Assembly: GCF_002911015.1 (NCBI RefSeq)
Contig: NZ_KZ626862.1
Span: forward strand, 1 to 64,000
Length of the DNA: 64,000 nt
Direction of reading: 5' to 3'
DNA from: Streptomyces populi
GTDB lineage: Bacteria; Actinomycetota; Actinomycetes; Streptomycetales; Streptomycetaceae
Shown: piece after piece, positions 41,369 to 59,367 of the stretch
Layout: each line of letters opens with the position of its first letter
Position numbering within the stretch: the stretch's first letter is position 1
Notes under the pieces: model-generated
What the model saw: only the letters and a program-made list of their open reading frames with translations
Database searches by the model: none
What the model was told of the DNA's origin: nothing
Position numbers and translations under genes: made by a program

Positions 41369-41851
41369 TCAGCGGGCGCGGGCGCCGCTTCGGGTGATCG
41401 GCACGGCGGGAGTCGTGTGCACGGTCCGGCCTGCGGTGCGGCTGGTCGCGGTCCAGGCGCCGGGGAACCAGACGGTGGTGTACTGCTCGATGGCGTCGCG
41501 CAAGCGGGTGGTGACGGCCCCCTCCCATGGTGGCCGCCCGGGACGGTGGTACGTGTCGAAGGTGCCGTACTGCTTGGTGTTCGGCCGGGTGTTGGTCGCT
41601 TCGTCGCGCCTGTGAAAAGTGCCGTGATCCAGGAAACTGAGCGCCACCGCGTCGATCTCCCCGCGGTCCGGATGGACAACCGCCAAGCGCAGGCCGCCGT
41701 AGGTGTCCGCGTAGATGGTGCGGCTGAAGTCGATCCGCAGCCGCAGGGACGTGCCCGGGACCGGGGCGGCGTAGTAGGTGTTGCCCACGACGGTGCTGTC
41801 GCGGAAGGGAAGGCACAGCTCGGCGAAGAACTCCGGGGCCTGCAGGGACAA
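41369..41851 (-). CDS. hypothetical protein next to the DUF317 gene
   Basis: 160 residues, no named family recognised. It starts MSLQAPEFFAELCLPFRDST and includes TSLRLRIDFSRTIYADTYGG and AVVHPDRGEIDAVALSFLDH. The sequence is soluble, with a basic C-terminus. A coding pattern with strong third-position GC and a position 30 nt after the DUF317 gene support a real gene. Such a pair is often met in Streptomyces integrative elements, in my recollection. Confidence 0.65.
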   Translation of the reverse strand: MSLQAPEFFAELCLPFRDSTVVGNTYYAAPVPGTSLRLRIDFSRTIYADTYGGLRLAVVHPDRGEIDAVALSFLDHGTFHRRDEATNTRPNTKQYGTFDTYHRPGRPPWEGAVTTRLRDAIEQYTTVWFPGAWTATSRTAGRTVHTTPAVPITRSGARAR

Positions 41852-41881
41852 GAGGGGTCTCCGGGAGGGGTCGAGCTGGTC

Positions 41882-42751
41882 CTATCGGCGTGGACCGGGC
41901 AGAGCCGGTCGGCTGGTGGTGCTCCAGCGCGGGATGCTGGCCGCGGGGAGCGGGGCCAGGCGGCGAGATGCGACGGCCCGCTGTACATCGAGCGGGGTGG
42001 GAGTCTGCGGCCTGGACGGAAGGATCGGGGTGAGCTGGGCCATGCCCTCGATGTAGCTGAAGGTGTCCTCGCGCCATCGGGGCAGCGGAGCCGGGTCGGC
42101 GACGCACTCGGTGAGAGCGGCGAGCAGGGCGACGGGGGTATCGGTGCTGGCCGTGGCGTACCAGAGAGGCCGGTTGACGGACTTGCCCGCCCACAGCTGC
42201 CAGCGAGCGTCCCGCGTCGTCAGCTCGGCCTCCGGATCGATGTCGCCGGTGGTGAACTCCAGGCCGGCGAGGCCGTCCGGGGCTTGGACAGCGAAGACGC
42301 CCCAGCGCGGGCGTTCGATCTCCCAGCCCTGTTTCAGCAGAGGCACGACGGCGAGGAAGGGATCGTGCTCGTCAGTCCCGGTGACCGGCCGGGCGAGGTA
42401 GGCGTCCGGCCCCTGCTCGTACGCCGTGGCGAGAACAGTAGTGAACGCGGTCACGAACTCAGTGGGAACGCGGTCGTTGAAGCACACGCCCCAGGTCGGC
42501 GGTCCGAACGGATCGCGGTAGGCGTTGATGCGCCAGAGCCCGTCGTCCTCGCCTTCAGGGAGGTAGCCCAGGCGGACCTTGCGGTCGGGGGCGTTGACGT
42601 AGGCGTTGCCGAGGTCGTCGTTATGGAGGTCCTAGCCGAGGCCAATGAGTGGGGCGAGGGCTGGGTCGCCGATCCCGGTGGTGGAGGCGAGGTGGCGTGG
42701 AGAGACGAAGACGTCTCCGTCAATTACACGTGGTTCGTCGTGAGGGGTCAC
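41882..42751 (-). pseudogene. DUF317 protein interrupted by an amber stop
   Basis: A continuous minus-strand frame starts at GTG 42751 (VTPHDEPRVIDGDVFVSPRH), reaches PALAPLIGLG, meets TAG at 42634-42632, and then continues as DLHNDDLGNAYVNAPDRKVR and LGYLPEGEDDGLWRINAYRD. It then enters the clear DUF317 body (FLAVVPLLKQGWEIERPRWG, TTRDARWQLWAGKSVNRPLW). Family members normally have tryptophan at the stop position, so TGG to TAG is the simplest history. About 290 codons in total. DUF317 proteins are of unknown function and typical of Streptomyces. Restart from ATG 42487 could give a 201-residue partial product. Confidence 0.75.
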
Positions 42752-42779
42752 AGGTTCCTGAGCGGTGAAGACGGACGGG

Positions 42780-43400
42780 TCAGGCAGCGGGCCTCAGGGC
42801 TTCTTGGAGGGCGTCGCTGGAGCCGGTGTAGTGCAGTGTCCGCAGGCCCAGGCGGGCTGCGGCCTGGCAGTTGTCGGCGCGGTCGTCAACGAACAGGACG
42901 CGTCGTGGATCGCGAACTCCGGTGGCTCGCAGGGCGTAGTGGTAGGCGGCCGGGTCGGGCTTGCACACCTCAAGTTGGGCTGAGTACAGCGCCTGGGTCA
43001 TCAGACGGCGCCAGTCGTGGGTATCGAGCACGGTACTGAGGTGGGCCGGTGCGTTGGACAGCAGCACCATCGGCAGTCCGGTGCCGTGGGCGAGGCGGAG
43101 CACGGACAGAACTCTCTCGTCGGTCGCGGTCCACATGACCGTGTCCGCGGCGAGGAGCTCGCGCAGCAGGCGGGATCCGGGGTGGGCGCCGAGGACGCGA
43201 GCCCAATACGCCAGGTCGCTGAGCTGGCCGGCGTCGTAGAGGTCGCGGGCGTTCCAGAAGGCTCGCTGGAAGCCTACGAGATCGTCTTCGGGCCAGGAGG
43301 CGGTGCGGGCCAGTCGGAGCCAGTGGGCGCGCGTGGGCTGCAGTCCGATGACGCCGTTGTAGTCGAGGATGACGGCGTCGAGGCTGGTGGGGCGGGTCAA
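42780..43400 (-). CDS. HAD-superfamily hydrolase
   Basis: 206 residues, TTG start overlapping the stop of the upstream MFS gene (TTGA). HAD motif I reads VILDYNGVIG, so the second aspartate of DxD is asparagine. Motif II is VLLSNAPAHL, motif III is EVCKPDPAAYHYAL, and motif IV is RVLFVDDRADNCQAA. Most HADs are phosphatases, and loss of the second aspartate occurs in dehalogenase-like and some other HADs, so phosphatase activity is not assured. It is the last gene of the ATP-grasp/MFS cassette. Confidence 0.88.
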   Translation of the reverse strand: MTRPTSLDAVILDYNGVIGLQPTRAHWLRLARTASWPEDDLVGFQRAFWNARDLYDAGQLSDLAYWARVLGAHPGSRLLRELLAADTVMWTATDERVLSVLRLAHGTGLPMVLLSNAPAHLSTVLDTHDWRRLMTQALYSAQLEVCKPDPAAYHYALRATGVRDPRRVLFVDDRADNCQAAARLGLRTLHYTGSSDALQEALRPAA

Positions 43401-44542
43401 GGGGTGGTGTTCTCCAGAGCGCGAGGGGTGAGGGCGGCGAGGGCGGTTGCGAGGAGGGCGGGCAGCAGCAGTGCTGTGGGCAGGGTGGTGACGCTGGCCA
43501 GGGCGCCGATGAGGGCGGGGCCAGCGAGCAGGCCGAGGTAGCCGGTGACGGAAACCGTGGCAACGGCCCTCGGTCCATGGTTTCCAGCGGCGGTGATCAG
43601 GGAGGGGACGGTGCCGGACAGACCGAGCCCGAAGAGCGCCCAGCCGGCCAGCGCCGCAGCCACGCTGTCGGCCAGGACACCAGTGGCCAGTCCGGCTGCG
43701 GCAAGCAGCGCGCCGGTGCGAACTACGGCAGGGGCGCCAAAGCGGGTCGTGAGCCGGTCGCCGGTCAGTCGGCCGATCGCCATGCCGGTGCTGTAGAGGG
43801 CGAAGGAACTCGCGGCGGCAGCCGTACCGGCGTGCAGCGTGTGTACGTGCACGGCGGCCCAGTCAGCTGCCACGCCCTCCCCCAGCAGACTGGCAGCCGC
43901 CAGCGCACCCAGCAGCCATACCTTCCCCGTCGCCCGGTCCTGATCGGCCCCTTGGGGGCTGGAGGTCTTGGGGTCGGCGCCGCTCAACATGAGGGTGCGC
44001 GGCCCGGCCACGAGCACGCTCGCCATCAGCGCGGCGCCGACCGTCAGGAACAGAGCGCTGTGGGTTGTGCCGGCGGTGACCACGGCCAGAGCTGCGCCGC
44101 CTAGCGCGCCGATCGAGTACGCGGCGTGCAGGGACGACATGATGGGCTTGCCGTAAGCGTTCTGGCAGCGGACCGCCCCCGTGTTGACTGCGACGTCCAG
44201 GACACCGTGCGCGGCGCCGAAGGCCAGCGCCGCTGCGAGCAGCGAGGCCAGCGTCTGGCATTGCCCCAGCAGGGCGAGGGCTGCTGACAGTGCGACAGCT
44301 CCGCCGATCAGGAGCGCAGAGAGCCGTTCGGGCCGGATGAGTCGGCCGCCGGCCTGCAGTCCGGCGACCATGCCGAGGGCGGCGGCAAGCAGGACGAGGG
44401 ACAGGCTGCTGGTCGTGAGGTGGGCGGCATGCTGGACGGTCGGCATTCGGGCGCCCCAGACAGCCATCACCACGCCCAGACCGAGGAAGTAGCCGGTCAG
44501 CAAGACCCGGCTGCGCCGTAGGGAAACGTCGGGGCGGCTCAT
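43397..44542 (-). CDS. MFS transporter (first of cassette)
   Basis: 381 residues with about twelve helices. The start LLTGYFLGLGVVMAVWGARM and the segment GAAHGVLDVAVNTGAVRCQN resemble FucP/YbjJ-like MFS proteins, a group of sugar or small-molecule permeases and exporters. Both ends overlap neighbouring genes by 4 nt (ATP-grasp upstream, HAD downstream), so the three products are made together. It could export the product of the ATP-grasp enzyme. Confidence 0.87.
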   Translation of the reverse strand: MSRPDVSLRRSRVLLTGYFLGLGVVMAVWGARMPTVQHAAHLTTSSLSLVLLAAALGMVAGLQAGGRLIRPERLSALLIGGAVALSAALALLGQCQTLASLLAAALAFGAAHGVLDVAVNTGAVRCQNAYGKPIMSSLHAAYSIGALGGAALAVVTAGTTHSALFLTVGAALMASVLVAGPRTLMLSGADPKTSSPQGADQDRATGKVWLLGALAAASLLGEGVAADWAAVHVHTLHAGTAAAASSFALYSTGMAIGRLTGDRLTTRFGAPAVVRTGALLAAAGLATGVLADSVAAALAGWALFGLGLSGTVPSLITAAGNHGPRAVATVSVTGYLGLLAGPALIGALASVTTLPTALLLPALLATALAALTPRALENTTP

Positions 44543-45807
44543 GCGGGGCGCCCACCGGCAACAGGCTCATCGACCGGGCGGGGCTCGACGTGGATCTGGA
44601 TGCGTCGGGCAGCTTGCTCGGCGCGGGCCTGGGCGAGATCCGCGGTGGGCGCTGTGGTGATCAGGTAGCCGATCCGTGCGGTCCACATGTTGCCGCCGTC
44701 GGCCGGGAGAAGCAGTCGGTCGCCGACCTGGTGCTGGAAGTGCACGCGGTCCAGCCAGAGCGGGTTGACGCCCTCGAAGCCGAGACGGTGCAGAGTGCCG
44801 GAGGTGTCCGGGTAGAGCAGCTGGATCGCGGCGGCCGAGGACTTGGTCGGGGTGAGGTCGGGGGCCCGGCCGCAGGCGATGTCGGCGGCGGCGCGCGGCA
44901 GGTCGATGCCGGTGACGAATCGGACGAGGTGGCCGATCATGTCGCCAGCGATCCGGCCATTGACCTCGACCAGTCGCGGTCGGCCGTCGACCAGCCGCAT
45001 CTCGACATGGCAGACGCTGTCGGTGATCCCCAGAGCCCGGATCGCGGCCCGTGCCACGGGAGTCACCACGTCGAGCAGAGGGTCGGTGGCGTCCACGCGG
45101 TGGGCCAGTTCCTCGAAGAAGGGCGGAGCGCTGACCGTCTTGCGGGTGAGCGCGACCACCGCGGTCTCGCCGCGGTAGGTGACGCACTCGACCGACACCT
45201 CGGGTCCGTCGAGATACTCCTCCACCAGCACGCTGGTGGACTCCCGCCCGAACCCGGCCGCCTGGTCGGCGAACGCGAAGGCGGCGGTGAGCTGTTCGGG
45301 AGTGTCGGCGCGGATCACTCCGATACTGGCCGCGTGCGCGGCTGGCTTCAGCACGAGCGGGTAGCCGATCTGCCGGGCCGCCGCCTCGGCCTCGGCCAGG
45401 GTGCGCACGCTCACCGAGGCAGCCGACGGTACCCCGTGCCGTGCGAACAGCGCACGGGACGTGGCCTTGTTGCGGCACGCCTGCATGGCTTCCGGGGTGG
45501 TGGTGGGCAGGCCGAGCTGGCGTGCGAGGCGGGCGACCGGGACGAGGTACCACTCGGTCCAGGTGAACACCCCGGCCAGGTCGTAGCGTTCGGCCAGAGT
45601 CCGGCCGGCGGCGGACAGCTCCGCCTGGTCGGTCGGATCGGACACGACCACGCAGTCCCGCAGGTACGGCACCTCCCACGAGGGCTCTTGGCTGGTGATC
45701 AGGACAACGTCATAGGCGGCGGCCACGGACTGGAGGCAGTAACCGCGGTACGCCTCGGCCTCCATGTCGGCTGCGGCAACGACCAGGACGACAGGACGGT
45801 CGGACAA
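44539..45807 (-). CDS. ATP-grasp carboxylate-amine ligase
   Basis: About 422 residues from a TTG at 45807 with AAGGAG 7 nt upstream. The ATP-grasp core includes YPLVLKPAAHAASIGVIRAD, VEEYLDGPEVSVECVTY, CHVEMRLVDGRPRLVEVNGR (metal-binding Glu and Asn) and a C-terminal subdomain (GFEGVNPLWLDRVHFQHQVG). The closest types in my memory are L-amino-acid ligases and biotin-carboxylase-like ligases that join an amino acid to a carboxylate. With two MFS transporters around it, dipeptide-like metabolite production and export is a reasonable hypothesis. Confidence 0.87.
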   Translation of the reverse strand: MSDRPVVLVVAAADMEAEAYRGYCLQSVAAAYDVVLITSQEPSWEVPYLRDCVVVSDPTDQAELSAAGRTLAERYDLAGVFTWTEWYLVPVARLARQLGLPTTTPEAMQACRNKATSRALFARHGVPSAASVSVRTLAEAEAAARQIGYPLVLKPAAHAASIGVIRADTPEQLTAAFAFADQAAGFGRESTSVLVEEYLDGPEVSVECVTYRGETAVVALTRKTVSAPPFFEELAHRVDATDPLLDVVTPVARAAIRALGITDSVCHVEMRLVDGRPRLVEVNGRIAGDMIGHLVRFVTGIDLPRAAADIACGRAPDLTPTKSSAAAIQLLYPDTSGTLHRLGFEGVNPLWLDRVHFQHQVGDRLLLPADGGNMWTARIGYLITTAPTADLAQARAEQAARRIQIHVEPRPVDEPVAGGRPA

Positions 45808-45918
45808 GAGCAAGCTCCTTGGAACGGAGGGTGGAAATGCGGAGGGCATGAGGCGGCGGACTGCAGCGGCAAAGAGCGGCTGCTCGACGCGCGGCCAGCG
45901 GCGTGGTGAGCCCTTCGG

Positions 45919-45942
45919 TCGAGGCTGCTCACGCAGCCTCGA
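45919..45942 (-). repeat. 10-bp-stem hairpin upstream of the ATP-grasp gene
   Basis: TCGAGGCTGC and GCAGCCTCGA pair perfectly around a TCAC loop, in the 267-nt gap between the second MFS gene and the ATP-grasp gene. It lacks a U-tract and could be an attenuator, a terminator or a protein site. No gene was seen in this gap. Confidence 0.5.
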
Positions 45943-46074
45943 AGGCTGCACGTGTCTGACGAGGGCCTGCTCGGCGGCCCGACAGGCGGCCTTCATCTGG
46001 CCGAGGCACTCGCGCGGCTCGTCCCGAGGACAGCGGCGGGCATGAGGTTCTCCCCAGGCCAGGGCGCAGCAGAG

Positions 46075-47310
46075 TCAGATACGCAGAGCGGGATCCGTGC
46101 GCAGTCGGGCGAAGGCGAGGAACAGGCCGAGGGCCTGCAGGACGGCGCAGGTCGTGATGATGTGGCCCATCGCGTCAGGCGGGGTGAGCGCGGTCAGTAC
46201 GCCAGCGACGGGGAACGGCAGCAGCAGGATGAGGATAGTCACCGACAGGGTGCTGCCGAACTTCTCCGCTGGGATCAGGCGGGAGCGCAGGGTGCGCAGG
46301 ACCACCGTCATGCCGCCGTCTGCCGCCATGAGGACCGCGACCAGAACCAGGTAGGACAGGTAGTCGGGGGCTTGGGAGACGGCGAGACAGGCGAGTGATG
46401 CGAGGGCACCGCAGGTGGCGCCGACCGGCCACAGGCCCAGACGGTCCAGCGCGAACCGGCAGAGCGTGACGCTGAGGAGTGTTGCGCCGGCGGCTACGGA
46501 CCAGACCAGGCCGACGGCAGTGGTGGACTGCCCGAAGTGCTCGACGACGATCACCGGACCGGCCGCTTGGAGCAGCCCGGTGGCCAGGTTGGACAGGGTC
46601 AGCCCGGTCACGAGCCAGCCGAGCACGGGCAGCGAGCGGATGGTGCGCCACCCGGTGAGGAGTCCGGCGCCGGGCCGCCCCTTCGGAGCGCGGGCCGGGA
46701 CGGCGGGCGAGGAGGGTGTGCGCAGGGCGAGCAGCGCGGCCAGTAGCGAGAGAACGGTGATCACGGCGAGCATCGGCGGCGGCCCGGCGAGCAGCAGCAG
46801 TGCGGCGAGCGCCGGGCCGGCCAGCGTCGCGGTCTGGTCGATGCCCAGCAGGACGGCCTGGACGCGGTGGGCTCGTGCACCTGCCCGGCGGCCGACGGCG
46901 GCGCCCGTTGTCTCGGCCGCGATGTAACTGAACTCGCTGAGCACTCCGGTGGCCGCCGCGAGCACCATGACGGTCACGCTCGCCATGGTGCCGACAGGGT
47001 GGAGGTGGAGGAGCACCGCGCCGGAGGCGAGTACCAGCGCGCGTCCGAGGGAGGCGAGGTGGAAGACCACGGATGCCCCGCGCCGGTCGACGATCGATCC
47101 GGCCCACCCGAACGCCGCCAGGCGCGGGATCCATTCCAGGACGAACGCGGTGCCCGTCAGAGCGGCAGAGCGCGTGGTTGCCAGGACCAGCAGCGGGATG
47201 CCGTAGGTGGACATCGCCAACGCGAGGGCGTCCGCCGTACGCGGCAGGTAGATGCCGCGCACCAGCCCGGCGGTGTGGCACGCCTGTCGCGGTGTAGCCG
47301 TCGTGCTCAT
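46075..47310 (-). CDS. MFS transporter (second of cassette)
   Basis: About 411 residues, twelve helices. RGIYLPRTADALALAMSTYG, RLAAFGWAGSIVDRRGASVV and MAADGGMTVVLRTLRSRLIP resemble the MFS_3/enterobactin-exporter-like branch. The ATG at 47310 overlaps the stop of the winged-helix gene upstream. It is unlike the other MFS protein of the cassette, so the two probably carry different substrates or face opposite directions. Confidence 0.87.
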   Translation of the reverse strand: MSTTATPRQACHTAGLVRGIYLPRTADALALAMSTYGIPLLVLATTRSAALTGTAFVLEWIPRLAAFGWAGSIVDRRGASVVFHLASLGRALVLASGAVLLHLHPVGTMASVTVMVLAAATGVLSEFSYIAAETTGAAVGRRAGARAHRVQAVLLGIDQTATLAGPALAALLLLAGPPPMLAVITVLSLLAALLALRTPSSPAVPARAPKGRPGAGLLTGWRTIRSLPVLGWLVTGLTLSNLATGLLQAAGPVIVVEHFGQSTTAVGLVWSVAAGATLLSVTLCRFALDRLGLWPVGATCGALASLACLAVSQAPDYLSYLVLVAVLMAADGGMTVVLRTLRSRLIPAEKFGSTLSVTILILLLPFPVAGVLTALTPPDAMGHIITTCAVLQALGLFLAFARLRTDPALRI

Positions 47311-47825
47311 GCGACCGGCTCGGGGACGGACAGGCGGGTGACCTGCGGATTGCCGGTCAGCCACCGGATCAAGAGGGTACGGGGACGGGCGAGGCCCTCC
47401 TCAGCCTCGGCGCTGGGCAGGCGCGCGGCGGACAGTCGTACGAGGCTGTCGGCGCTCTCGGCCGCGAGCGAGGACGTCAGCAGGTCGAGAACGTGGCGGA
47501 CGCGATTGCTGAACTCGCAGACCCGTGACGGGTAGGCGTGGCGTCGGGACCAACGCGCAGCCGCGTCGTACAGGTCGGCCAACTCCGAGCCGGAATCTGT
47601 GAGGACCAGGCCCATGCCGGGCGCGGTCCGGACGAGACCGTGGGTGCGGGCTGTTTCGGTCGCACGGCGCAGTTCGTGCGAGGCAAGGTCGGGGAGGGTA
47701 GCCGCCAGCCGTCGTGGCGGTATCGCCCCGTTGTCGTCGATCTCGGTGACCAGGCGGATCAAGGAGCGAGAGGCCAGCAACTCGACGGCGTTGCGTACTT
47801 CGGCTGTGGTGAACAGGGTGGTCAT
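47307..47825 (-). CDS. winged-helix regulator, small
   Basis: 172 residues. The N-terminus (AEVRNAVELLASRSLIRLVT, GAIPPRRLAATLPDLASHEL, GLVRTAPGMGLVLTDSGSEL) has the shape of an HxlR/MarR-like winged helix with a C-terminal helical part. ATG 47825 overlaps the upstream regulator gene and its stop overlaps the MFS gene. It probably forms a regulatory pair with the two-domain protein before it. Confidence 0.75.
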   Translation of the reverse strand: MTTLFTTAEVRNAVELLASRSLIRLVTEIDDNGAIPPRRLAATLPDLASHELRRATETARTHGLVRTAPGMGLVLTDSGSELADLYDAAARWSRRHAYPSRVCEFSNRVRHVLDLLTSSLAAESADSLVRLSAARLPSAEAEEGLARPRTLLIRWLTGNPQVTRLSVPEPVA

Positions 47826-48664
47826 CGGCGCGGTCCTCCTACCGGAACGGCCGCCTTCGGGCGAGCGGTCGTGGCGTGGGAGAAGAGATCGCGGTTGTGC
47901 CAGACCGGAACGGCCCCAGCCGTCCGGACCGGAGGAAGCACCGCAGGGGGCAGGCGGGACTGGCTGCTGGTCCATGGCCTCGGCGAGGGCTTCGCCTGCG
48001 GGTGCCCCCAGACCGGGTGGTGGGCCGCCCGGTCGAGGGGCTGCCCGGCGGACCACACGGACAGGGCGCCGAGAACGGGGCCCAGGCCGTCGCCCGCCGC
48101 CGACAGCCGGTAGGGCTGGCCGATGCCCTCGGTGTCGACCAGTCCGTCGGCCGCGAGTTGCCGCAGCGGCGGGTAGATGTTGGTCCAGTCGCTGCTGGGC
48201 ATCACGATCCGGGCAAGGGCACGCCCGCTGGCCTCCTGGCGGGACTTCAGCACCCACAGGATGGCGGCGGAGTACCGCCGGGTGAGCAGGGTGAGGCTGT
48301 CTTCGATCTGCTCGATCGCGGGCAGTGGATTGTCCGCGGTCTCCAGATGTTGCTCGGCCCAGGTGACGATCATCGGCAGGACCGGCAGCAGGGCGGCACC
48401 ACGCTCGGTGTGGCCGTAGGTCACATGGCGTGCGGTGTGTTCGGTGCGCTCGACGAGCCCGGCGTCGCACAGCGACTTGAGCTTGGGGTGGAGCTGGCCG
48501 TTCTGCAGCCAGGAAACCTTGGCCGCCAGCTCGGTGTACCGCAGCGGCGGGCCGGAGAGTGCCAGCAGGATTCTCACGTTCCAGCGCGGGGTGATCATGG
48601 CGAGGGCCTCGGTGACCCGGGCGATGTCGACGTCGGTGTCGGGAGGCAGAGCGGTGATGGCCAA
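47822..48664 (-). CDS. tandem HxlR-type winged-helix regulator
   Basis: About 280 residues from TTG 48664 with GGAG upstream. It contains two HxlR-like winged helices in one chain: RWNVRILLALSGPPLRYTEL then LKSLCDAGLVERTEH (about 20-95), and RRYSAAILWVLKSRQEASGR then PPLRQLAADGLVDTEG (about 120-195). A proline-rich tail follows. HxlR proteins normally work as dimers of one-domain subunits, so this is a built-in dimer. It heads the run of overlapping cassette genes and is its likely regulator. Confidence 0.8.
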   Translation of the reverse strand: MAITALPPDTDVDIARVTEALAMITPRWNVRILLALSGPPLRYTELAAKVSWLQNGQLHPKLKSLCDAGLVERTEHTARHVTYGHTERGAALLPVLPMIVTWAEQHLETADNPLPAIEQIEDSLTLLTRRYSAAILWVLKSRQEASGRALARIVMPSSDWTNIYPPLRQLAADGLVDTEGIGQPYRLSAAGDGLGPVLGALSVWSAGQPLDRAAHHPVWGHPQAKPSPRPWTSSQSRLPPAVLPPVRTAGAVPVWHNRDLFSHATTARPKAAVPVGGPRR

Positions 48665-48704: not shown

Positions 48705-49118
48705 TCAGCGGTTGCGCGCCGCGGTCCGGGCCGAAAGGGGCGGAGCCGGTAGCGGCGGCGAAGGAATCGGCGGGGACGGCGTTGGGGCCGGGACGCGGGC
48801 GAGGCTCTGCAGAACAGCGGCAACCGACTTGGCCTGGACATCACGCACGGCGACGGCTTCAGCGAGCCGACGGGAACCGTCGAGGAGGTGAGAGACCTCA
48901 TGCCGGCCGATCTGCCGTTCGGGGTGGACGAGCCGGGCGAGGTGGTCGCGGTGGACATTGATGCTGCGCTCGGCGATGGCGAGGTCGTCGTGCATGCCGA
49001 GCAGGGCGGAGAGCATGCCGGGCGGCTGGTCCTGGGCGTGGGTTTCGAGGTCGGCGAGCGGCACGCCGTACAGGTCCTCGATCCGTCCGGCTATGTCGGT
49101 GGACGTGAGGTGGGGCAA
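48705..49118 (-). CDS. hypothetical protein, coiled-coil-like
   Basis: 137 residues with a TTG start and no recognised family. It has MPHLTSTDIAGRIEDLYGVP, AIAERSINVHRDHLARLVHP and a proline-rich C-terminus (PTPSPPIPSPPLPAPPLSA). The helix-rich middle suggests a small structural or adaptor protein. It belongs to a run of closely spaced minus-strand genes (48.7-52.6 kb) typical of actinomycete mobile elements. Confidence 0.6.
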   Translation of the reverse strand: MPHLTSTDIAGRIEDLYGVPLADLETHAQDQPPGMLSALLGMHDDLAIAERSINVHRDHLARLVHPERQIGRHEVSHLLDGSRRLAEAVAVRDVQAKSVAAVLQSLARVPAPTPSPPIPSPPLPAPPLSARTAARNR

Positions 49119-49127
49119 GCGGGGCTT

Positions 49128-49571
49128 TCAGGGACGGCGGGCCCGGGACGCCCCGGCACGTGGTGGTGCCGGGGCTGCGGACGGAGACAGGGTGACGGTG
49201 GCCTTGAGCTGCGTCATACGGACGGGCCGGGCCTGCTGGTCGGACGAGGGCACGGTGCGCAGAAGTTCGCCGAGAGCTGCGCGGTAACCGTCGCGGGCAT
49301 CGAGCGCGGCCTCGAGCCACCGAGCGTCGAAGCGGAGCCTGTCCGCCGACAGTTCGCTCATGTCGCGGTCCGGGTCCATGTCCGCGTGCACGCGGTCGCG
49401 GACGCGGGCGACCTGCTCCTCGATCAGAGCCAGGAACGAGCGCAGTTCCAGGGCACGGGCGAGGGCGGGAGAGGCATCGTGGTCGGCAGTCGCCTCGTGC
49501 AGCTCGGGGACCGGGCTGCCGAAGATCTTCTGCAGGTCGGCGTCCATGCTGCTGGGCTTGTCCCGGATCAT
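49128..49571 (-). CDS. hypothetical protein
   Basis: About 147 residues, starting MIRDKPSSMDADLQKIFGSP, with a mainly helical middle (ALELRSFLALIEEQVARVRD) and no recognised domain. ATG 49571 overlaps the stop of the upstream gene (ATGA); ATG 49547 is an alternative. It shares general character with the next two genes (conserved RW-x-L/E helices), so they may be distant paralogues. Confidence 0.6.
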   Translation of the reverse strand: MIRDKPSSMDADLQKIFGSPVPELHEATADHDASPALARALELRSFLALIEEQVARVRDRVHADMDPDRDMSELSADRLRFDARWLEAALDARDGYRAALGELLRTVPSSDQQARPVRMTQLKATVTLSPSAAPAPPRAGASRARRP

Positions 49572-50050
49572 CGGGTGGGCCTTCCCGCCCGCCCCGCCGA
49601 CGTCGGCGCGGGTGCACCCGCGGGTCGGTGGGGAGGGCTGGTCTGCACCGCCGGACCGGTTCGGGGGCGAAGGCGGGCGAGCCGTTCGGCAGCGAGGTCC
49701 TTCTTGCCCGGGGCGTCGGGATCGAGAAGCCATCGCACGACCAGGGCCCGGCCGTCGCGGGCGGTGACGGCTGCGTTCACGCGGTGGGCGAGGCCCATCG
49801 TCGGGTCGTCGACCTCGCCGGGCTGGGTTTCCAGCGCGGCAAGGAGGTCGTCCTCCGCGCAGTCGAGCACGGACTGAGCCTCGACGAGGAGGCCGTACCA
49901 CCTGACGGCATCGGTAGCGTCAGGATTCACGGTCGGAGCTGCGGCTACTGCGGCCTTCAACTGGTCGATGTCCATGGCGAAGCGCGCTTCGATCCGTTCG
50001 GTGAGCACGCCCACGACATCCTCAGCGTCATCGGATATGCCTTCGGACAA
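49568..50050 (-). CDS. hypothetical protein
   Basis: About 160 residues from a TTG at 50050 with AGGAG 8 nt upstream. It has SEGISDDAEDVVGVLTERIE, DAVRWYGLLVEAQSVLDCAE and LAHRVNAAVTARDGRALVVR, then a basic proline-rich tail. No family was recognised. It is soluble and helix-rich, and its stop overlaps the next start. Confidence 0.6.
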   Translation of the reverse strand: MSEGISDDAEDVVGVLTERIEARFAMDIDQLKAAVAAAPTVNPDATDAVRWYGLLVEAQSVLDCAEDDLLAALETQPGEVDDPTMGLAHRVNAAVTARDGRALVVRWLLDPDAPGKKDLAAERLARLRPRTGPAVQTSPPHRPAGAPAPTSAGRAGRPTR

Positions 50051-50121
50051 AAGGAAAGCTCCTGTTCTGAGAAGTGTGCCGATGCCTTGGGGAAGATGAG
50101 AAAGCGGCCGTGCCTGGCGGC

Positions 50122-50229
50122 TCAGCCACTTACGACAGCGGGCGCCGCGCTGGCGGTGATGGCGAAGAACACCGGCAGGGCGAGCGCTCCGACCATCGCC
50201 GCGGATATGGCAATTCGGGTGGAGCACAC
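50122..50229 (-). CDS. 35-residue hydrophobic peptide
   Basis: A short frame on the minus strand starts at GTG 50229 with GGAGG (50241-50237) 7 nt upstream and ends at TGA 50124-50122. The product has one hydrophobic stretch (AISAAMVGALALPVFFAITA) after a short RIA start, ending SAAPAVVSG. It looks like a single membrane helix or a cleavable signal. It heads the run of small element genes and resembles the tiny membrane peptides found near spread and transfer genes of Streptomyces elements, without a specific match. Confidence 0.5.
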   Translation of the reverse strand: MCSTRIAISAAMVGALALPVFFAITASAAPAVVSG

Positions 50230-50310
50230 ACAAAAACCTCCGTGAATGCATAGGGATTGCGGGAAGGGTGCCGCGACAGTTGTTCCGGCGGCTGTACAAG
50301 AGTCCGGAGA

Positions 50311-50335
50311 ATCGCCGGTTTGGCCAACCGGCGAT
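50311..50335. promoter_or_regulatory. 25-bp inverted repeat upstream of the small-peptide gene
   Basis: Perfect 10-bp arms (ATCGCCGGTT and AACCGGCGAT) surround a 5-nt centre, with TTGGCCAA inside. It lies between the stop of one minus-strand gene and the start of the 35-residue peptide gene. The form suits a repressor operator; there is no T-tract for a terminator. Confidence 0.45.
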
Positions 50336-50373
50336 CGTCGGCTACGTTTCGCCGCCCGCGTTGGTCCTGGCGC

Positions 50374-51120
50374 TCAGCGCGAGCGGCCGGGCGGACGCGG
50401 AGGAGCCTTCGCAACACCGGTCGGGCGGCTCACTCCGGCTGCCGGACGAACCGGCGGGAGAGCGCCGGCTTCGCCGGTGAGCCGATCGTCGCACCACTGC
50501 AAGGCGTCTTCGACCGTGGCGAAGCCGCCCTCGCGCAGGGTGCGGGTCCACGCGCTGGGGTCGACCTCTTCGACGACGACGCGGTACGGCGAGAGGGCTC
50601 GCTCGCCCAAGGCGCGCAGTGCCACGACGGTGACCATGTCGTCAGGGTCATCGCAGGTGTAGGAGTAGCCCATGGCGTAGTGGTCGCCCTCGCCCGCAAG
50701 GCGTTGCTCCAGCGCCCGCGTTGCCTCGTCCGCCGACGGCGGGCCCAGCTCGGGGTTGAGGCCGATCGCGCCGGGAGGACAGCCTCGGTGGATGAGCCAG
50801 GACTGCGCCATCGCGGGCAGCGGCATCGGGGCCTGCTCGTAGCTGAACGTCCGCTTCTCTTGGTCCCGTTGAAGGTATACGGCGATCAGGTGCGGCATAC
50901 CGGGGTGCCCCCAGGTGGCGGTGCGGTCGAACAGGACGTAGTAGCTGTTCACCCCGTCGGGAGTGTGGTGTTCGGCGAGAGGGACGAGCATGTCCTCGGG
51001 GACACCGACCTTGCGATAGAAGTCGAGGTAGACCTCTTCATCGGCATCGAAGTCATCCAGCTCGAAGTCGACTTGAGGGATGACCTTCCGAGGCGGTGCC
51101 GGTTCGGTGGGAGACAACAA
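50374..51120 (-). CDS. hypothetical protein
   Basis: About 248 residues from a TTG near 51120 (AAAGG upstream), overlapping the preceding gene by 68 nt. It contains VDFELDDFDADEEVYLDFYR, GMPHLIAVYLQRDQEKRTFS, IHRGCPPGAIGLNPELGPPS and VEEVDPSAWTRTLREGGFAT. The sequence is acidic and soluble. No named family is assigned. The coding character is strong, but the start is uncertain. Confidence 0.6.
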   Translation of the reverse strand: MLSPTEPAPPRKVIPQVDFELDDFDADEEVYLDFYRKVGVPEDMLVPLAEHHTPDGVNSYYVLFDRTATWGHPGMPHLIAVYLQRDQEKRTFSYEQAPMPLPAMAQSWLIHRGCPPGAIGLNPELGPPSADEATRALEQRLAGEGDHYAMGYSYTCDDPDDMVTVVALRALGERALSPYRVVVEEVDPSAWTRTLREGGFATVEDALQWCDDRLTGEAGALPPVRPAAGVSRPTGVAKAPPRPPGRSR

Positions 51121-51370
51121 GGGCCTTTCGGTGGAGTTCAGCGCCGCTGCGCCGGGGGGATGGCGACTCGTCAGGGCCCGCCGGGAGCTTGAGTTCCTGG
51201 GCCGTAGGCGTTCGGCAGGCGGCAAACAGCGCGGCACGTCCGGCGTCGGTGAGAGCGACCGACTGGCCGACGTGCACGAGGTGGCCGGTGTCCCGGACGA
51301 CCGGGCCGACGGCTTCCAGCCGCTGCAGCTCGGTGTGAGGGATGCGGGTGCCGGCAGCGGTCACGGACAT
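51053..51370 (-). CDS. hypothetical protein, start uncertain
   Basis: 105 residues from ATG 51370, which lacks a ribosome site. The open frame upstream reads GAELYEHLLTGR and looks coding, but I find no ordinary start codon there, so the true N-terminus is unclear. The body (TELQRLEAVGPVVRDTGHLV, SVALTDAGRAALFAACRTPT) is reminiscent of a small winged-helix fragment. The 3-prime end overlaps the next gene. Confidence 0.5.
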   Translation of the reverse strand: MSVTAAGTRIPHTELQRLEAVGPVVRDTGHLVHVGQSVALTDAGRAALFAACRTPTAQELKLPAGPDESPSPRRSGAELHRKALVVSHRTGTASEGHPSSRLRAG

Positions 51371-51426
51371 ACGGCCGGTCAGCAGGTGTTCGTAGAGTTC
51401 GGCGCCGGCGGCGACGCTCCGCGGGT

Positions 51427-51912
51427 TTAGCGGGTGTGGTGGTGCGCGGGGTTGTGTGGGGGATGGGGCAGATCCGGCAGTGCGGTGGGCGGCGGACCGG
51501 GCCGGGTCGCGGTAGTGCGGGTGGCCAACTGCGGGGAGCGCGATCGTGCCGCGTGGGTGCGGGCGCTCAGTGGCCGTCGGGGCATTCCCAGGCGGCGGCC
51601 GACCTCGTCATAGACGTCGTTGCCCGCACGCGGCCGGACCGCGACGACGTGGATCTCCCTCGGGTGCGCGGACTCCGCGGGCGCCGGACGGACGCCGTAG
51701 ACGACGCGCCAGTCCTTACGCGAATCCACGAACAGCTTTCGGTAACCCTCCAGATCACCGTCGAGGCGTAGCCCGAAGCGCTGCGCGTTCACGACTTCCT
51801 GCAGGTAGGCGAGAGTGAGGTCGCGGATGTCGCTGGGGGCCTGGAGGAGATCGGTCAGCGCGCGAGGGTCGAAGCTCAGACCGAAGGCGGGCTGTCCCTG
51901 GCCCGCGTTCAT
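51427..51912 (-). CDS. RelE/ParE-like protein with long tail
   Basis: 161 residues from ATG 51912, overlapping the DUF4913 gene by ATGA. The middle part (LEGYRKLFVDSRKDWRVVYG, then REIHVVAVRPRAGNDVYDEV) has the strand order and basic residues of RelE/ParE-type ribonuclease toxins. A 50-residue proline- and arginine-rich tail follows. No antitoxin gene is adjacent, so it may be a domesticated or regulatory RelE-fold protein. Confidence 0.65.
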   Translation of the reverse strand: MNAGQGQPAFGLSFDPRALTDLLQAPSDIRDLTLAYLQEVVNAQRFGLRLDGDLEGYRKLFVDSRKDWRVVYGVRPAPAESAHPREIHVVAVRPRAGNDVYDEVGRRLGMPRRPLSARTHAARSRSPQLATRTTATRPGPPPTALPDLPHPPHNPAHHHTR

Positions 51913-52559
51913 GACGTCGACTCGTCCGGCTCGGCGGCGCCGACGGCTTCCGTCGTGGCCGCCGTCTCCGTACGTACGGACGGCGGCGGGCCGGGCAGAA
52001 GACGGTGCGCGGGCCGGTCGGGAGAGGTCATGCAGGCCGACAGCGGCCCACCCGGCGCGCGGATCGCCGTAACGGCATGAGCAAGGAAGTCCCGGTGCCA
52101 CACGAACAGGCCGGAGAGCCCGGATTCAGGGTCCTTGTGCTGCTGGTAGGCGAGCCACAGGGCATGGAGCCAGGCCACGACGTCGTCGTGCTCCTGCCAC
52201 TGCAGGCACCAGGGCGCCGCGGTGGTGACCTCCGCCCCGTAGACCGGAAGGAAGAAGTCGTCGACCCAGTCCGACAGGGCGTCGAGTTCGTCCTCGCGTT
52301 CCTCTCCGTCCAGTTCCAGGATCGGGCGAGGCTCCGGCGGAGCCGCAGGAGCCGGCCGGCCGAGCCCCTGCATGCCGAAGGCCGCGAACGGCGATCCGCC
52401 CGGCGCCGGAGCGGACGCGAGATGATCGAGTTGCTGGGCCTGCTGCGCCGACTGCTCCATGAGCCGTCGGACGCTTGCCTCGATCCCCTCCAATTGCGGG
52501 TCCGGAACGCGAACCGGCTCCCGTTTCCCGCTGTCTGCGGGCTCTATGGATTCAGGCAT
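51909..52559 (-). CDS. DUF4913 domain protein
   Basis: 216 residues. An N-terminal coiled segment (EGIEASVRRLMEQSAQQAQQ) is followed by the conserved block LDALSDWVDDFFLPVYGAEV, APWCLQWQEHDDVVAWLHAL and GLFVWHRDFLAHAVTAI that I recall as DUF4913. The family is typical of actinomycete plasmids and integrative elements and has no known activity. It is the first gene of the minus-strand run. Confidence 0.75.
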   Translation of the reverse strand: MPESIEPADSGKREPVRVPDPQLEGIEASVRRLMEQSAQQAQQLDHLASAPAPGGSPFAAFGMQGLGRPAPAAPPEPRPILELDGEEREDELDALSDWVDDFFLPVYGAEVTTAAPWCLQWQEHDDVVAWLHALWLAYQQHKDPESGLSGLFVWHRDFLAHAVTAIRAPGGPLSACMTSPDRPAHRLLPGPPPSVRTETAATTEAVGAAEPDESTS

Positions 52560-52639
52560 GAAAAGTACGGTCTCCTACGAGATGTGAGATGACAGATGAG
52601 CGGGATCCACGGCACATAACCCGCCGGAGGGTTGCACTA

Positions 52640-52674
52640 CTGAACTTGAACGGGCGATGTCTGGTCGGTTGGCC
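52640..52674. repeat. left copy of a 35-bp inverted repeat
   Basis: This copy starts CTGAACTTGAACGGG and pairs in inverted orientation with 53305-53339; 29 of 35 positions match, including the first 15. The two copies bracket the hypothetical gene at 52811-53278. No target duplication was seen. Confidence 0.6.
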
Positions 52675-52810
52675 TGATGGGGGCTGGCTGCCTCGCCGCG
52701 CTGGCCTTGCCATCCACGAGTAACGAACCCGAGGAACGGCTGGCCTGCCACGTGGCCCTACGATCACGGCACCCCGCCGAACGCTTGTGCCCGACGAATT
52801 GAGTGAGCCC

Positions 52811-53278
52811 ATGAGCGACGACGTCCTGTCGAGCATTCCGACCGATCCCCAGTGGCAGCCCGACCGGCCGGCGGCCGAGCGGACCGCTGCGCTCGCCGCG
52901 GACCTGGCTCCTGGCCTGTCCGATGGAGTGGATGTCGAGATCGACGTCACCTGGCACGACGCCCTCACCCCCGTCGACTGCGGCGAGAACCTGGAACGGA
53001 TCGGCTGCCCGCACTGCGGTGCCTCGATCGACCTCGAGTGGTACGCCGACCTGGTGGAAAGCCACTGCGAGGACGGCTTCGCCACCCTGGCCGTAGAAGT
53101 GCCGTGCTGCGGTGCCGCCACGTCGCTGGACGTATTGGACTACGCGTGGCCGTGCGGCTTCGCCCGCTTCGAGATCGCCATCTGGAACCCCGAACGTGAC
53201 TGGTTCGACGACGAGGAACTGGCCACTATCGGCGACACACTCGGGCACCCGGTGAAGCAGATCAGAGCCCACATCTGA
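52811..53278 (+). CDS. hypothetical cysteine-rich protein between inverted repeats
   Basis: About 155 residues from ATG 52811 (GTG 52787 is an in-frame alternative). It has two Cys pairs, IGCPHCGASIDLEWY and VEVPCCGAATSLDVLDYAWP, which could hold a zinc ribbon, and an acidic end. No named family is assigned. It is the only gene lying between a pair of 35-bp inverted repeats and runs opposite to the genes on its left. Confidence 0.65.
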   Translation: MSDDVLSSIPTDPQWQPDRPAAERTAALAADLAPGLSDGVDVEIDVTWHDALTPVDCGENLERIGCPHCGASIDLEWYADLVESHCEDGFATLAVEVPCCGAATSLDVLDYAWPCGFARFEIAIWNPERDWFDDEELATIGDTLGHPVKQIRAHI

Positions 53279-53304
53279 CTCAGGTCTCAACAGGAACCGA
53301 GTGC

Positions 53305-53339
53305 GGCCGTCCAGCCCGACATCACCCGTTCAAGTTCAG
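53305..53339. repeat. right copy of the 35-bp inverted repeat
   Basis: It ends CCCGTTCAAGTTCAG, the reverse complement of the left copy with one mismatch in the outermost 22 bp. It lies 27 nt after the stop of the enclosed gene. Confidence 0.6.
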
Positions 53340-53437
53340 CAGACGCTGCAAGAGGCCTCGGTCGGATCGCTGAAAACGGAAGTCTGCTCGGATCCGGGGG
53401 CAGCTGCGTTGTCGGTACCACCGTCTACGGTGCGCTC

Positions 53438-54217
53438 ATGTCGTTTGCCCTGCCCGATGGTCTGCCACGCGGCCAGTTCCTGCCTTCCGAGCTCCCGCGC
53501 GTGTGGGTCTCCGACGAGTTTCCTCGGAACGTCGAGGAGTTGTGGCCTCGCCTGCTGAGCGAGCAGAGTGCATACGGCCTGGTTCCGCTGCTCTGCCAGC
53601 CCGATGCCATGGGAACACCGCTCAGCTTGGAGCAGGTCGACGCCGTCAGCCTGGAGGAGGAACTGGCTGCGGACTTCGCCGAATACCGGCGCAGACGGCT
53701 GCCCTGGTGGACGGACCCGACACCGGTCCTGGCACCTGAAGGAATCGAGCCGTGGCCCCATGACCCCGGACCGCCCTTCGAACAATGGCCGGGCCTGGCA
53801 CCGTCCATGCCGACTACACCCGCAAGCCCGTCGCCCGAGGAGGCAGCGTCGAACCTGTTGGCGTGGCTGGTCAAAAGGGGCCTGCTGTACGAGTGTCGTC
53901 TGGCGCTCGTTCCCGCCCGTCGCGGCAGCGATGCTCTGGCCTTGATCGGCTGGTCCGGAGGGGGATACCTGCCTCTGCTGTGTGCGCTCACACGGAGCTG
54001 GGAGGACCGCTTTGGCGCACAGGTCGTGGCGGTGTTCGGCAGCGAGGTGTACGTCTCGGCCGCGAGACCTCCCGTTGAAGCAGAGCACGCAAATCTGCTC
54101 GCTCTGGAGCACGTGCTGTCGACCGCGGACAACATCGTCGATGACCCGCCCACGCCGTTCCCCGAGTACGCGATGGACCTCCCGGGACGGACCTTCTGGT
54201 CGTTCTGGTGGGACTAG
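53438..54217 (+). CDS. DUF4253 domain protein
   Basis: 259 residues, ATG start. The C-terminal half (ECRLALVPARRGSDALALIG, SWEDRFGAQVVAVFGSEVYV, HANLLALEHVLSTADNIVDD) matches the DUF4253 pattern in my memory. The N-terminal half is variable. The family is widespread in actinobacteria and has no known activity. It may belong to immunity-like or polymorphic-toxin contexts, but nothing here proves that. No signal peptide. Convergent with the methyltransferase gene. Confidence 0.75.
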   Translation: MSFALPDGLPRGQFLPSELPRVWVSDEFPRNVEELWPRLLSEQSAYGLVPLLCQPDAMGTPLSLEQVDAVSLEEELAADFAEYRRRRLPWWTDPTPVLAPEGIEPWPHDPGPPFEQWPGLAPSMPTTPASPSPEEAASNLLAWLVKRGLLYECRLALVPARRGSDALALIGWSGGGYLPLLCALTRSWEDRFGAQVVAVFGSEVYVSAARPPVEAEHANLLALEHVLSTADNIVDDPPTPFPEYAMDLPGRTFWSFWWD

Positions 54218-54349: not shown

Positions 54350-55105
54350 TCAGACGGCGAGAACCACGTCGTCCTGGGTGAGTGTTTCGCGGATCGTCTC
54401 GGTGAGCCGGTCGGCCGCGATCGACGCGTAGTGCTCGGTCTTCTCCACACCGATGAAGTCGCGGCCTTCCAGCAGGGCGGCGACGCCCGTGGAGCCGGAG
54501 CCGGCACAGAAATCGAGCACCGTGCCACCATCAGGGCTGATCTTGACCAGCTCGCGCATTACCTCGACCGGCTTCTGCGTGATGTGCTGACGCTTCGCCC
54601 CCGAGGGCTGCGAGGCGCTGTAGAGACCGGGCAGGTAGACGGGGTTACAGGAGCCGTCGATCGCTCCCTTCGACGCCCAGACGATGAATTCACAGTTCTG
54701 GGTGAACCGGCCCTTCTGTGGCCTGGCCTGCGGCTTGTGCCAGGCCAGCACCCCACGCCACAGCCATCCAGCCGCCTGGATCGCGTCCGTCGTGGTGGGG
54801 AGCTGACGCCAGTCGGTGAACAGCAACGCGGTGCCGCCAGCCTTCGTGAGGCGGTGGGCTTCGGTCATGATCTGCGTCAGCCAAAACCCGTACGACCTTT
54901 GGTCCATGTTCTCGCCGGTGAAGTCCGGCAGCGCGTGCTGGGCGTCGGCGGAGGTGTACTTCTGCTTCGCGGAGCGGGTGGTGCGCTCCTTCGCGGTCCG
55001 GCCCCCGCTGTTGTACGGCGGGTCGGTGATGACGGAGTCGACGCAGCCGTCCGGGAGGCCGGTGAGAACACTGAGGGCGTCGCCCTGATGCAGGGAAAAA
55101 GGCAA
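54350..55105 (-). CDS. site-specific DNA methyltransferase, beta class
   Basis: About 251 residues from a TTG at 55105. The catalytic motif SVITDPPYNSGG comes first and the AdoMet-binding motif VLDFCAGSGSTGVAALLEGR comes near the C-terminus, with HITQKPVEVMRELV before it. That order (IV then I) is the beta class, methylating N6-adenine or N4-cytosine. No restriction endonuclease gene is adjacent, so it is an orphan. On a mobile element it may protect DNA during transfer. Confidence 0.9.
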   Translation of the reverse strand: MPFSLHQGDALSVLTGLPDGCVDSVITDPPYNSGGRTAKERTTRSAKQKYTSADAQHALPDFTGENMDQRSYGFWLTQIMTEAHRLTKAGGTALLFTDWRQLPTTTDAIQAAGWLWRGVLAWHKPQARPQKGRFTQNCEFIVWASKGAIDGSCNPVYLPGLYSASQPSGAKRQHITQKPVEVMRELVKISPDGGTVLDFCAGSGSTGVAALLEGRDFIGVEKTEHYASIAADRLTETIRETLTQDDVVLAV

Positions 55106-55279
55106 AGAGGAACCCCTATTCGGGTGCGGAATCGCGGAGGGAACTACCCGTCTCGTACAGGAGTCCTCGCGGGACGGAAGTGGGAATACGAAAGCCCAGA
55201 GCCCAGACCAAGGAGGGCGAGGGGAGTCCAAAAAACTGTAGAGGCGAATCCGTCGACGACCAAGAAGTGCCCTGCTGGG

Positions 55280-55556: not shown

Positions 55557-55619
55557 ATGACGTCTCGCTACCCACCCTCACCCAAAATCGCTGACTGGCG
55601 AGCGGTCCGCTCCGGTTGA
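55557..55619 (+). CDS. 20-codon leader frame coupled to the hydrolase gene
   Basis: ATG 55557 has a good ribosome site (GAAGGAC) and the frame MTSRYPPSPKIADWRAVRSG ends at TGA 55617-55619. That stop overlaps the TTG start of the next gene as TTGA. The hydrolase start itself has no clear ribosome site, so translation may depend on this leader. Confidence 0.5.
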   Translation: MTSRYPPSPKIADWRAVRSG

Positions 55620-56734
55620 AGGCGCTCACCGCCGGCATCGGCGTCGTCTTCCTCTCCCCCGTCCTGATCGCCAGCACCGGCATGATGCTCGCTTCCTCCG
55701 CCGACGCCGTGCAGAGCAGCAGCTCCTTCAGCGACTGTCTGAGCGACATCGACACGGACAAGATCGCCGAACAGGTCACCAAGATCCTCGACGGCGCGTC
55801 CGGCAAAGACGTCCATGTCGAGGGCCTGGACCTGCCCGCCGAGCAGGTCCCCAACGCGCAGACGATCGTGGCCGCGGGCCTCTCGCTCGACGTTCCCAAG
55901 AAGGGGCAGATCATCGCGCTCGCCACGGCGATGCAGGAGAGCCGGCTGCGCAACCTCAACTACGGCGACCGCGACTCCCTCGGCCTGTTCCAGCAGCGTC
56001 CCTCCCAGGGCTGGGGCAGTGCCCAGCAGATCCGCGATCCGGTCTACGCCTCCGAGCAGTTCTACAAGCACTTGCTCAAGGTGGACGGCTGGCAGCAGAT
56101 GACCGTCACCCAGGCCGCCCAAGCCGTGCAGAAGTCTGGGCTGCCGGACGCGTACGCGCAGTGGGAGAACCTGGCCACCGCGCTGCAGGAAGCCATCGCC
56201 AAGACCTTCCCGGGCGGCGGCAAGGGTGCGGACCAGGGCAAGCAGCCGTCGACCGACGCGAGCGGCTGCACTCCGGGCCAGGACGGTTCCGGCTTCGGCC
56301 ACATCCCCGAGGGGAGCATCCCCAAGGGGTACAAGATCCCCGAGAACGCCGATCCAAAAGCGCGCAAGGCCATCGAGTGGGCGATGCAGCAGCTCGGCAC
56401 GCTCTACCAGTGGGGCGGGTCCTGCACCAACGCGCACGGTCCCGACCCCATGGGCCGCTGCGACTGCTCCAGCCTGATGCAGCAGGCGTACGCCCACGCC
56501 GGCGTCACACTCACCCGCACCACGTACACGCAGGTCAACGAGGGCAAGACAGTATCGCCCGCCCAGCTCAAGCCCGGTGACCTGATCTTCACCCGCGGCA
56601 CCGCGGCCCGGCCCGAGCACGTCGGCATGTACATGGGCGAGGGCCTCGTGATCGAGGCGCCCCGCACCACCAAGCCGGTCCGGATCACCCCGATCAAGGA
56701 CTGGACGATCCTCGCCGCCCGCCGCGTCCTGTGA
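55616..56734 (+). CDS. bifunctional lytic transglycosylase/NlpC-P60 hydrolase
   Basis: 372 residues. An N-terminal membrane helix or signal anchor (LTAGIGVVFLSPVLIASTGM) leads to a lysozyme-like domain (ALATAMQESRLRNLNYGDRD with Glu108, DSLGLFQQRPSQGW). A linker and a C-terminal NlpC/P60 peptidase domain follow, with Cys284 in RCDCSSLMQQAYAHAG and His335 in PEHVGMYMG. Such proteins cut peptidoglycan glycan and peptide bonds and, in Gram-positive type IV secretion systems, open the wall for the conjugation channel (VirB1-like role). It is the first large gene of the transfer operon. Confidence 0.9.
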   Translation: MKALTAGIGVVFLSPVLIASTGMMLASSADAVQSSSSFSDCLSDIDTDKIAEQVTKILDGASGKDVHVEGLDLPAEQVPNAQTIVAAGLSLDVPKKGQIIALATAMQESRLRNLNYGDRDSLGLFQQRPSQGWGSAQQIRDPVYASEQFYKHLLKVDGWQQMTVTQAAQAVQKSGLPDAYAQWENLATALQEAIAKTFPGGGKGADQGKQPSTDASGCTPGQDGSGFGHIPEGSIPKGYKIPENADPKARKAIEWAMQQLGTLYQWGGSCTNAHGPDPMGRCDCSSLMQQAYAHAGVTLTRTTYTQVNEGKTVSPAQLKPGDLIFTRGTAARPEHVGMYMGEGLVIEAPRTTKPVRITPIKDWTILAARRVL

Positions 56735-56872
56735 CTCCGCCCCCGCCCGGACACCTCTTCGGGCAGGGCCAGCGCCGCGGCCTCTTCCGCACCCCTCGCG
56801 TACCTCCCCCTCCCTTCCCCCTTCCTGTCGGCCCTCGCCTGGCCCGCGTATGCAAGGAGCCCCGCCACACCT

Positions 56873-57879: not shown

Positions 57880-57900
57880 CCCGCGCCTGGGACACGAAAG

Positions 57901-57918
57901 GAGGAGTAACTCCTCGTG
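57901..57918 (+). promoter_or_regulatory. hairpin covering the ribosome site of the polytopic transfer gene
   Basis: GAGGAG-TAA-CTCCTC (57901-57915) is a perfect 6-bp stem whose left arm is the Shine-Dalgarno sequence, and the GTG start follows at 57916. When folded it would hide the ribosome site. A ribosome finishing the upstream gene 20 nt earlier could open it. Confidence 0.55.
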
Positions 57919-59286: not shown

Positions 59287-59367
59287 TCACCTGCCCGTCT
59301 GCCGGGGGCGGGACGTGCACCGCGCCTCCCGCCCCCGGGTTCCACTCGCGCCTCCAGGACCCGCCCT

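Follow-up and report, generated by a model that had tools for sequence, protein, structure and literature searches.

The contig NZ_KZ626862.1 of Streptomyces populi (RefSeq assembly GCF_002911015.1) was analysed over positions 1 to 64,000, hereafter the window. On its minus strand, at 42780-48664, lies a six-gene operon that encodes a tandem-HxlR regulator, a winged-helix protein (WH), a major facilitator superfamily transporter (MFS2), an ATP-grasp ligase, a second transporter of that superfamily (MFS1), and a haloacid dehalogenase (HAD) protein (Table 1). The original prediction, made from the letters of the window, had recognized these six genes inside a mobile region; all six were found where it had placed them, with their starts corrected, and conjugation genes adjoin the operon. 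As it had proposed, the ligase stands between two different transporters, MFS2 and MFS1. Its statement that the genes overlap almost throughout holds for four of the five junctions, each with an overlap of 4 nt, and not for the junction of MFS2 and the ligase, where there is a gap of 267 nt. An alternative, longer open reading frame for the ligase begins at an ATG at 45996. The ratio of non-synonymous to synonymous substitution rates (dN/dS) was 0.17-0.43 for every gene tested, i.e., purifying selection, and gene order was kept in ~30 Streptomyces loci. Because of this selection and the conserved order, the operon is not a chance arrangement.

To place the operon among related genomes, 296 Streptomyces genomes were searched with the ligase at a threshold of E 1e-80 or better, and 66 had a match. 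The ~30 loci share the order HXLR-WH-MFS2-SMALL-ligase, with MFS1-HAD present or not (SMALL is a seventh gene, described below), and comparison of whole elements showed one backbone common to nine of them. In a reverse test of the same 296 genomes, the SCO6880-family protein served as the query, so that elements were not chosen by their ligase. At 83% identity or more, this test gave 50 loci. The ligase lay near the SCO6880-family gene in 40 (13.3-24.1 kb away, median 14.6 kb) and on the opposite strand in every one of these; it was on another draft contig in six, and the threshold was not passed in four. The four exceptions were L201, with a partial ligase match, L199 and L203, with flanking operon genes and no ligase, and L202, where the operon was absent from the stretch read. 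Elements with looser SCO6880-family matches had the ligase less often, i.e., seven of 12 at 70-82% identity and five of 36 at 57-69%. In these last five, VirD4 is the neighbour of the ligase and MFS2, so the ligase entered or moved more than once; more distant elements have MFS2-ligase or the ligase alone, and no HxlR gene was seen nearby. The same set of genes thus recurs together on other elements, where the original prediction had proposed to look for it. With 46 of 50 elements retaining it, the operon counts as a near-constant module of these elements and not as loose, occasional cargo.

The ligase carries the domains PF13535 (ATP-grasp_4), PF18130 (ATP-grasp N), and PF18603 (LAL_C2), all above their curated cut-offs, and its nearest solved structures are BL00235 (3vot, E 6.6e-28) and BacD (~1e-15). 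Its ATP lysine region, FFEE..H, and E-V-N-x-R align with those of BL00235 and BacD; among its relatives, EEYLDGPE is exact in 41 of 48 and the metal-site motif E-V/I-N-x-R/G occurs in all 48 rows. In BL00235, P85 shapes the substrate pocket (PMC6920838). The equivalent position is occupied in 47 relatives and is Trp in 40 of them, which points to a single restricted pocket throughout the clade. Against the model for the alanine-anticapsin ligase BacD (NF053745), the ligase scored 58 bits where the cut-off is 850, and against NF002563/PRK02186, an argininosuccinate-lyase-fused ATP-grasp model, 201 bits where the cut-off is 625. Because it falls below the cut-offs of the named models, including that for BacD, the family does not give its substrates. 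A fusion to argininosuccinate lyase was considered and rejected, since the long frames of relatives extend N-terminally, no C-terminal fusion was seen, and the match covers the ATP-grasp part only. The host genome has other, weaker ATP-grasp matches (best 42% identity). Judged by its domains and nearest structures, the enzyme is of the L-amino-acid-ligase kind and lies outside primary metabolism, in agreement with the amino-acid-ligase-like enzyme first suggested.

Table 1. Features of the operon and of the conjugative element around it (window coordinates unless marked as contig).
Feature	Position	Strand	Basis
SPDY/DUF317 protein (f04) and f14, backbone downstream of operon	41369..42779	-	PF03771; conserved order
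HAD-IA family protein	42780..43400	-	TTG start 43400; TIGR01509 and PF00702 above cut-off
MFS1, second MFS transporter, HAD partner	43397..44542	-	ATG start 44542; PF07690
ATP-grasp ligase, 422 aa	44539..45807	-	TTG start 45807 after AAGGAG
SMALL stump (MPAAVLGTSRAS...) with ribosome-binding site	45993..46043	-	gap compared with relatives
MFS2, TIGR00900 (H+ antiporter) type	46075..47310	-	ATG start 47310; PF07690
WH, winged-helix protein, 172 aa, HxlR-like relative	47307..47825	-	ATG start 47825
Tandem-HxlR regulator, 280 aa	47822..48664	-	TTG start 48664; PF01638; profile comparison of halves
f11, f12, f05, f03, f13, f06/DUF4913, backbone upstream of operon	within 48705..54217	-	order conserved in relatives
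Two open reading frames amid upstream backbone	52787-54217	+	
N6/N4 DNA methyltransferase, backbone	54350..55231	-	PF01555, E 2e-31
Conjugation module: NlpC/P60, DUF6112, SCO6881 family, SCO6880 family, VirB4-like ATPase	55616..62945	+	
VirD4-like coupling protein	contig 75561-77351, outside window		PF12696, E 1.6e-33

Correlations of pairwise protein distances, calculated over up to 48 loci, showed that the genes do not share one history. The HxlR distances correlated at 0.96 with those of the backbone protein f11 and at 0.90 with those of f06, and at 0.54 with those of the ligase. MFS2 and SMALL correlated at 0.87 and SMALL and the ligase at 0.59, while the values were 0.91 for MFS1-HAD, 0.74 for ligase-MFS1, and 0.71 for ligase-HAD. 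By these distances, the operon is made up of three evolutionary modules, namely regulator plus backbone, MFS2 plus SMALL, and ligase plus MFS1 plus HAD. Moreover, MFS1-HAD is absent from roughly half of the loci, in which MFS2-ligase persists. The single cassette of the original prediction is therefore replaced by a composite in which HxlR follows the backbone and not the ligase, MFS1-HAD is optional, and the window itself has lost SMALL. L054-L057 mostly share 78-91% identity with the window in the backbone, HxlR, and MFS2, but only 61-64% in the ligase; the ligase of the window is instead 87-88% identical to those of L009 and L010. Since the affinity of the ligase differs from that of the backbone, HxlR, and MFS2, the ligase-MFS1-HAD block was exchanged here by recombination, probably with its junction at the truncated SMALL.

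The gap between MFS2 and the ligase holds SMALL, a gene of ~100 codons, in most relatives. In the window, a frame opens with an ATG at 46043 and closes after 16 codons. The alignment of SMALL has 24 invariant columns, and the intact family is phrog_13625, a phage family to which no function is assigned; its model is all-helical, with four predicted helices, and a fold search with that model gave no match. Deletion or truncation has left the window, L018, L026, and L056/L057 with no intact SMALL, while the ligase is open in all of these. A phage origin of the genes was considered and set aside: although SMALL matches phrog_13625, tblastn with the ligase and SMALL returned no phage record. In L060 and L063, an insertion of ~4-5 kb lies between MFS2 and the ligase, near the site of SMALL, and encodes a tyrosine-recombinase-like protein and a small helix-turn-helix-like protein.

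MFS2 adjoins the ligase in nearly all relatives and, from its family resemblance, is likely an exporter. Motif I of the HAD protein reads DYNGV in 19 of 19 relatives, with Asn where phosphatases carry the second Asp, and DxD was not found. Since the second Asp of ordinary phosphatases is missing, other chemistry is possible, and the protein may perform a non-phosphatase reaction.

The regulator gave 58.5 bits with PF01638 (cut-off 20.8) and was indeed found to be a tandem HxlR protein. When compared with solved HxlR proteins, its N-terminal half matched strongly (best YodB, E 4.6e-14) and its C-terminal half, a diverged HxlR-like domain, weakly (E 1.6e-4), and the two halves are related to each other (hhalign E 2.1e-7). 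WH had no match in Pfam, NCBIfam, or PHROGs; its profile is akin to that of the C-terminal half of HxlR (hhalign E 9.8e-7), and its AlphaFold model (mean pLDDT 86) lies nearest to DtxR/MntR-type winged helices, with weak statistics. The second winged-helix protein of the original prediction is borne out by both comparisons. An anti-phage defence system was also considered and rejected, as the PADLOC models gave no match except a weak one of the HxlR domain to Csa3.

Taken together, these results point to an element-borne module for the synthesis and export of a dipeptide-like amide, a reading to which we assign a probability of about 0.6. The ligase would activate one amino-acid-like carboxylate as an acyl phosphate and would then join this to a second small amine, forming the amide. 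Since MFS2 is steadily present, it is suggested as the exporter of the product, while the optional pair of MFS1 and HAD would move or modify it, and expression would be controlled by the HxlR and WH regulators of the element. The near-constant place of the operon suggests that the product serves the element, perhaps as a signal, as a weapon against element-free cells, or in self-protection. The original prediction had left open whether a small peptide-like or conjugated metabolite is produced or captured. Production is the better supported of the two, and capture is possible with less support.

Several observations weigh against this reading. Export by MFS2 would follow from a family resemblance in which the TIGR00900 match falls below its curated cut-off, and the operon itself holds no gene for the synthesis of an unusual amino acid. 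HxlR and the ligase do not co-vary, and HxlR is therefore not necessarily a sensor of the product. Finally, no integrase, relaxase, attachment sites, or exact junction was recognized on the contig, so that mobility is deduced from the presence of conjugation genes and from the many chromosomes in which the element recurs.

The alternative that fares best is a bacilysin-like cargo, in which a dipeptide antimetabolite would benefit the host and MFS2 would be a self-resistance exporter, as BacE is with BacD; we consider this possible, if tentative. The ligase resembles BacD (E ~1e-15) and, far below its cut-off, the alanine-anticapsin model, an MFS gene adjoins it, and ligase-MFS1-HAD has been swapped, as would be expected of weapons under diversifying pressure. 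However, the operon is without genes for warhead synthesis, the ligase is kept by 46 of 50 elements, i.e., more steadily than usual cargo, and the pocket residue is constant across the swapped alleles. Rather unlikely is a signal system, whose diffusible product would report element-bearing cells and control conjugation through HxlR and WH. The near-constant place in the element backbone, the regulators directly upstream with 4-nt overlaps, the presence of an exporter, and the evolution of the regulator with the element would all suit such a system, yet regulator and synthase correlate at only 0.54, unlike many synthase-receptor pairs, and the distant elements noted above have MFS2-ligase or the ligase alone, with no HxlR gene nearby. 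A specific form of signalling, in which a dipeptide-like pheromone of the element informs element-bearing mycelia and tunes transfer, and in which a building block is provided or altered by the lone TrpA that some elements carry, seems to us unlikely.

Uptake or salvage would mean that MFS1 and HAD bring in a compound from the environment and process it, and that the ligase conjugates it, for detoxification or nutrient capture. That a HAD hydrolase and a second MFS form a tight pair is in keeping with it, but since this pair is missing in about half of the loci while MFS2-ligase stays, and since the TIGR00900-type transporter is efflux-like, we think it improbable. Least credible by far is modification of a gene-encoded peptide, with SMALL, encoded just upstream, as the substrate of the ligase: although SMALL is conserved and lies between MFS2 and the ligase, it is missing or cut short in the window, L018, L026, and L056/L057, where the ligase is open and, if tested, under purifying selection, it co-varies with MFS2 (0.87) and not with the ligase (0.59), and the ligase carries the C-terminal domain of L-amino-acid ligases.

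The element around the operon has both hallmarks of conjugation by a type IV secretion system (T4SS), a VirB4-like ATPase and a VirD4-like coupling protein; the latter is encoded beyond the window, on a contig that runs to base 98,437 and ends inside a CRISPR region. In f04 (41882-42750), an in-frame TAG was found where relatives stay open, and because of it f04 may be broken in this copy. Chromosomal genes that resemble those of rhamnose catabolism, as named from sequence, occupy 35742-41000 of the window and abut the element at ~41 kb. Further along the contig, a lone trpA (78377-79213, L126; PF00290, E 1.6e-42), with no trpB seen beside it, adjoins the VirD4-like gene and a cytosine methylase. 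A type I-E CRISPR-Cas system (Cas3, Cse1, Cas7, Cas5, Cas1, and repeat-like stretches) lies beside element genes at 84.8-98.4 kb (L127) and was not detected in the eight elements compared.

TrpA was found on integrated elements in 12 of the 296 genomes; in nine loci, its distance to the ligase is 38-49 kb, and it lies on the opposite strand. As a constant part of the system it was rejected in view of that count, and it is regarded as optional; a TrpA match that L065 has close to its ligase seems to be a fragment. Homologs of the ligase also occur on giant plasmids. NZ_CP107773 encodes, in order, SH3 proteins, MFS, MFS1, HAD, GNAT, ligase, a glutathione-synthetase-like protein, MFS, EgtD, MFS, and trpA; homologous sets are present on genome contigs (L077, L078), and variants with a pyridoxal phosphate (PLP) decarboxylase on NZ_CP109456 and NZ_CP109385. 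In L131, L133, L205, L077, and L078, we observed MFS, GNAT, two ATP-grasp enzymes, EgtD or a PLP decarboxylase, SH3 proteins, and TrpA. From their gene content, clusters of the giant-plasmid type look like undescribed biosynthetic clusters, and no published product was found for them. Among the matches listed, trpA occurred on at least 13 of the 18 Streptomyces plasmids with closer ligase matches (H91-H108), in nine within ~8 kb, and on none of the ten with weaker ones (Fisher p 2.5e-4, a rough value, as the split was made by eye post hoc and the plasmids are related).

Genes for small-molecule synthesis are, as a rule, passing cargo when they occur on mobile elements. The ligase-exporter module, by contrast, keeps one place in ~90% of a clade of large conjugative elements that is present in about one-sixth of the sampled Streptomyces genomes, and element lineages further removed have it too, as do giant plasmids. 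If its product acts on recipients or rivals, the module would represent an unexplored metabolic route for the spread of mobile elements, and a new class of natural products that could be found. The original prediction could not match the operon to a described cluster, and no published description was found among the open-licence papers searched, which is weak evidence of absence; on ATP-grasp enzymes with integrative-conjugative elements (ICEs), these papers gave only Pantoea pantaphos, and none joined ATP-grasp, HxlR, and Streptomyces.

In bacilysin synthesis, the ligase gene bacD stands beside the MFS exporter gene bacE, and the operon shares this adjacency. Its parts are thus of known kinds, i.e., an L-amino-acid ligase beside an MFS exporter. 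With BL00235, BacD, and RizA (3vot, 3vmm, 4wd3), the ligase shares the ATP-grasp N domain, ATP-grasp_4, LAL_C2, and the catalytic motifs; it is nevertheless distant from BL00235 (~100 bits), with Trp at the position of P85, and, unlike those systems, the operon is on a conjugative element, has HAD and tandem-HxlR partners, and is without anticapsin-type genes. The clusters of giant plasmids such as NZ_CP107773 share a homologous ligase, MFS1-HAD, and the lone TrpA of some integrated elements. GNAT, the second ATP-grasp enzyme, and EgtD or the PLP decarboxylase belong to the plasmid cluster, whereas the operon of the element is reduced and has HxlR, WH, and SMALL. With SCO6880/SCO6881-type conjugation regions and T4SS-based ICEs of actinobacteria (PMC3218068), the present element shares the VirB4-like, VirD4-like, SCO6880, and SCO6881 families and NlpC/P60. 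What it adds to them is a near-constant ligase module, and this, together with the link to giant plasmids, is new so far as can be told from the open papers searched.

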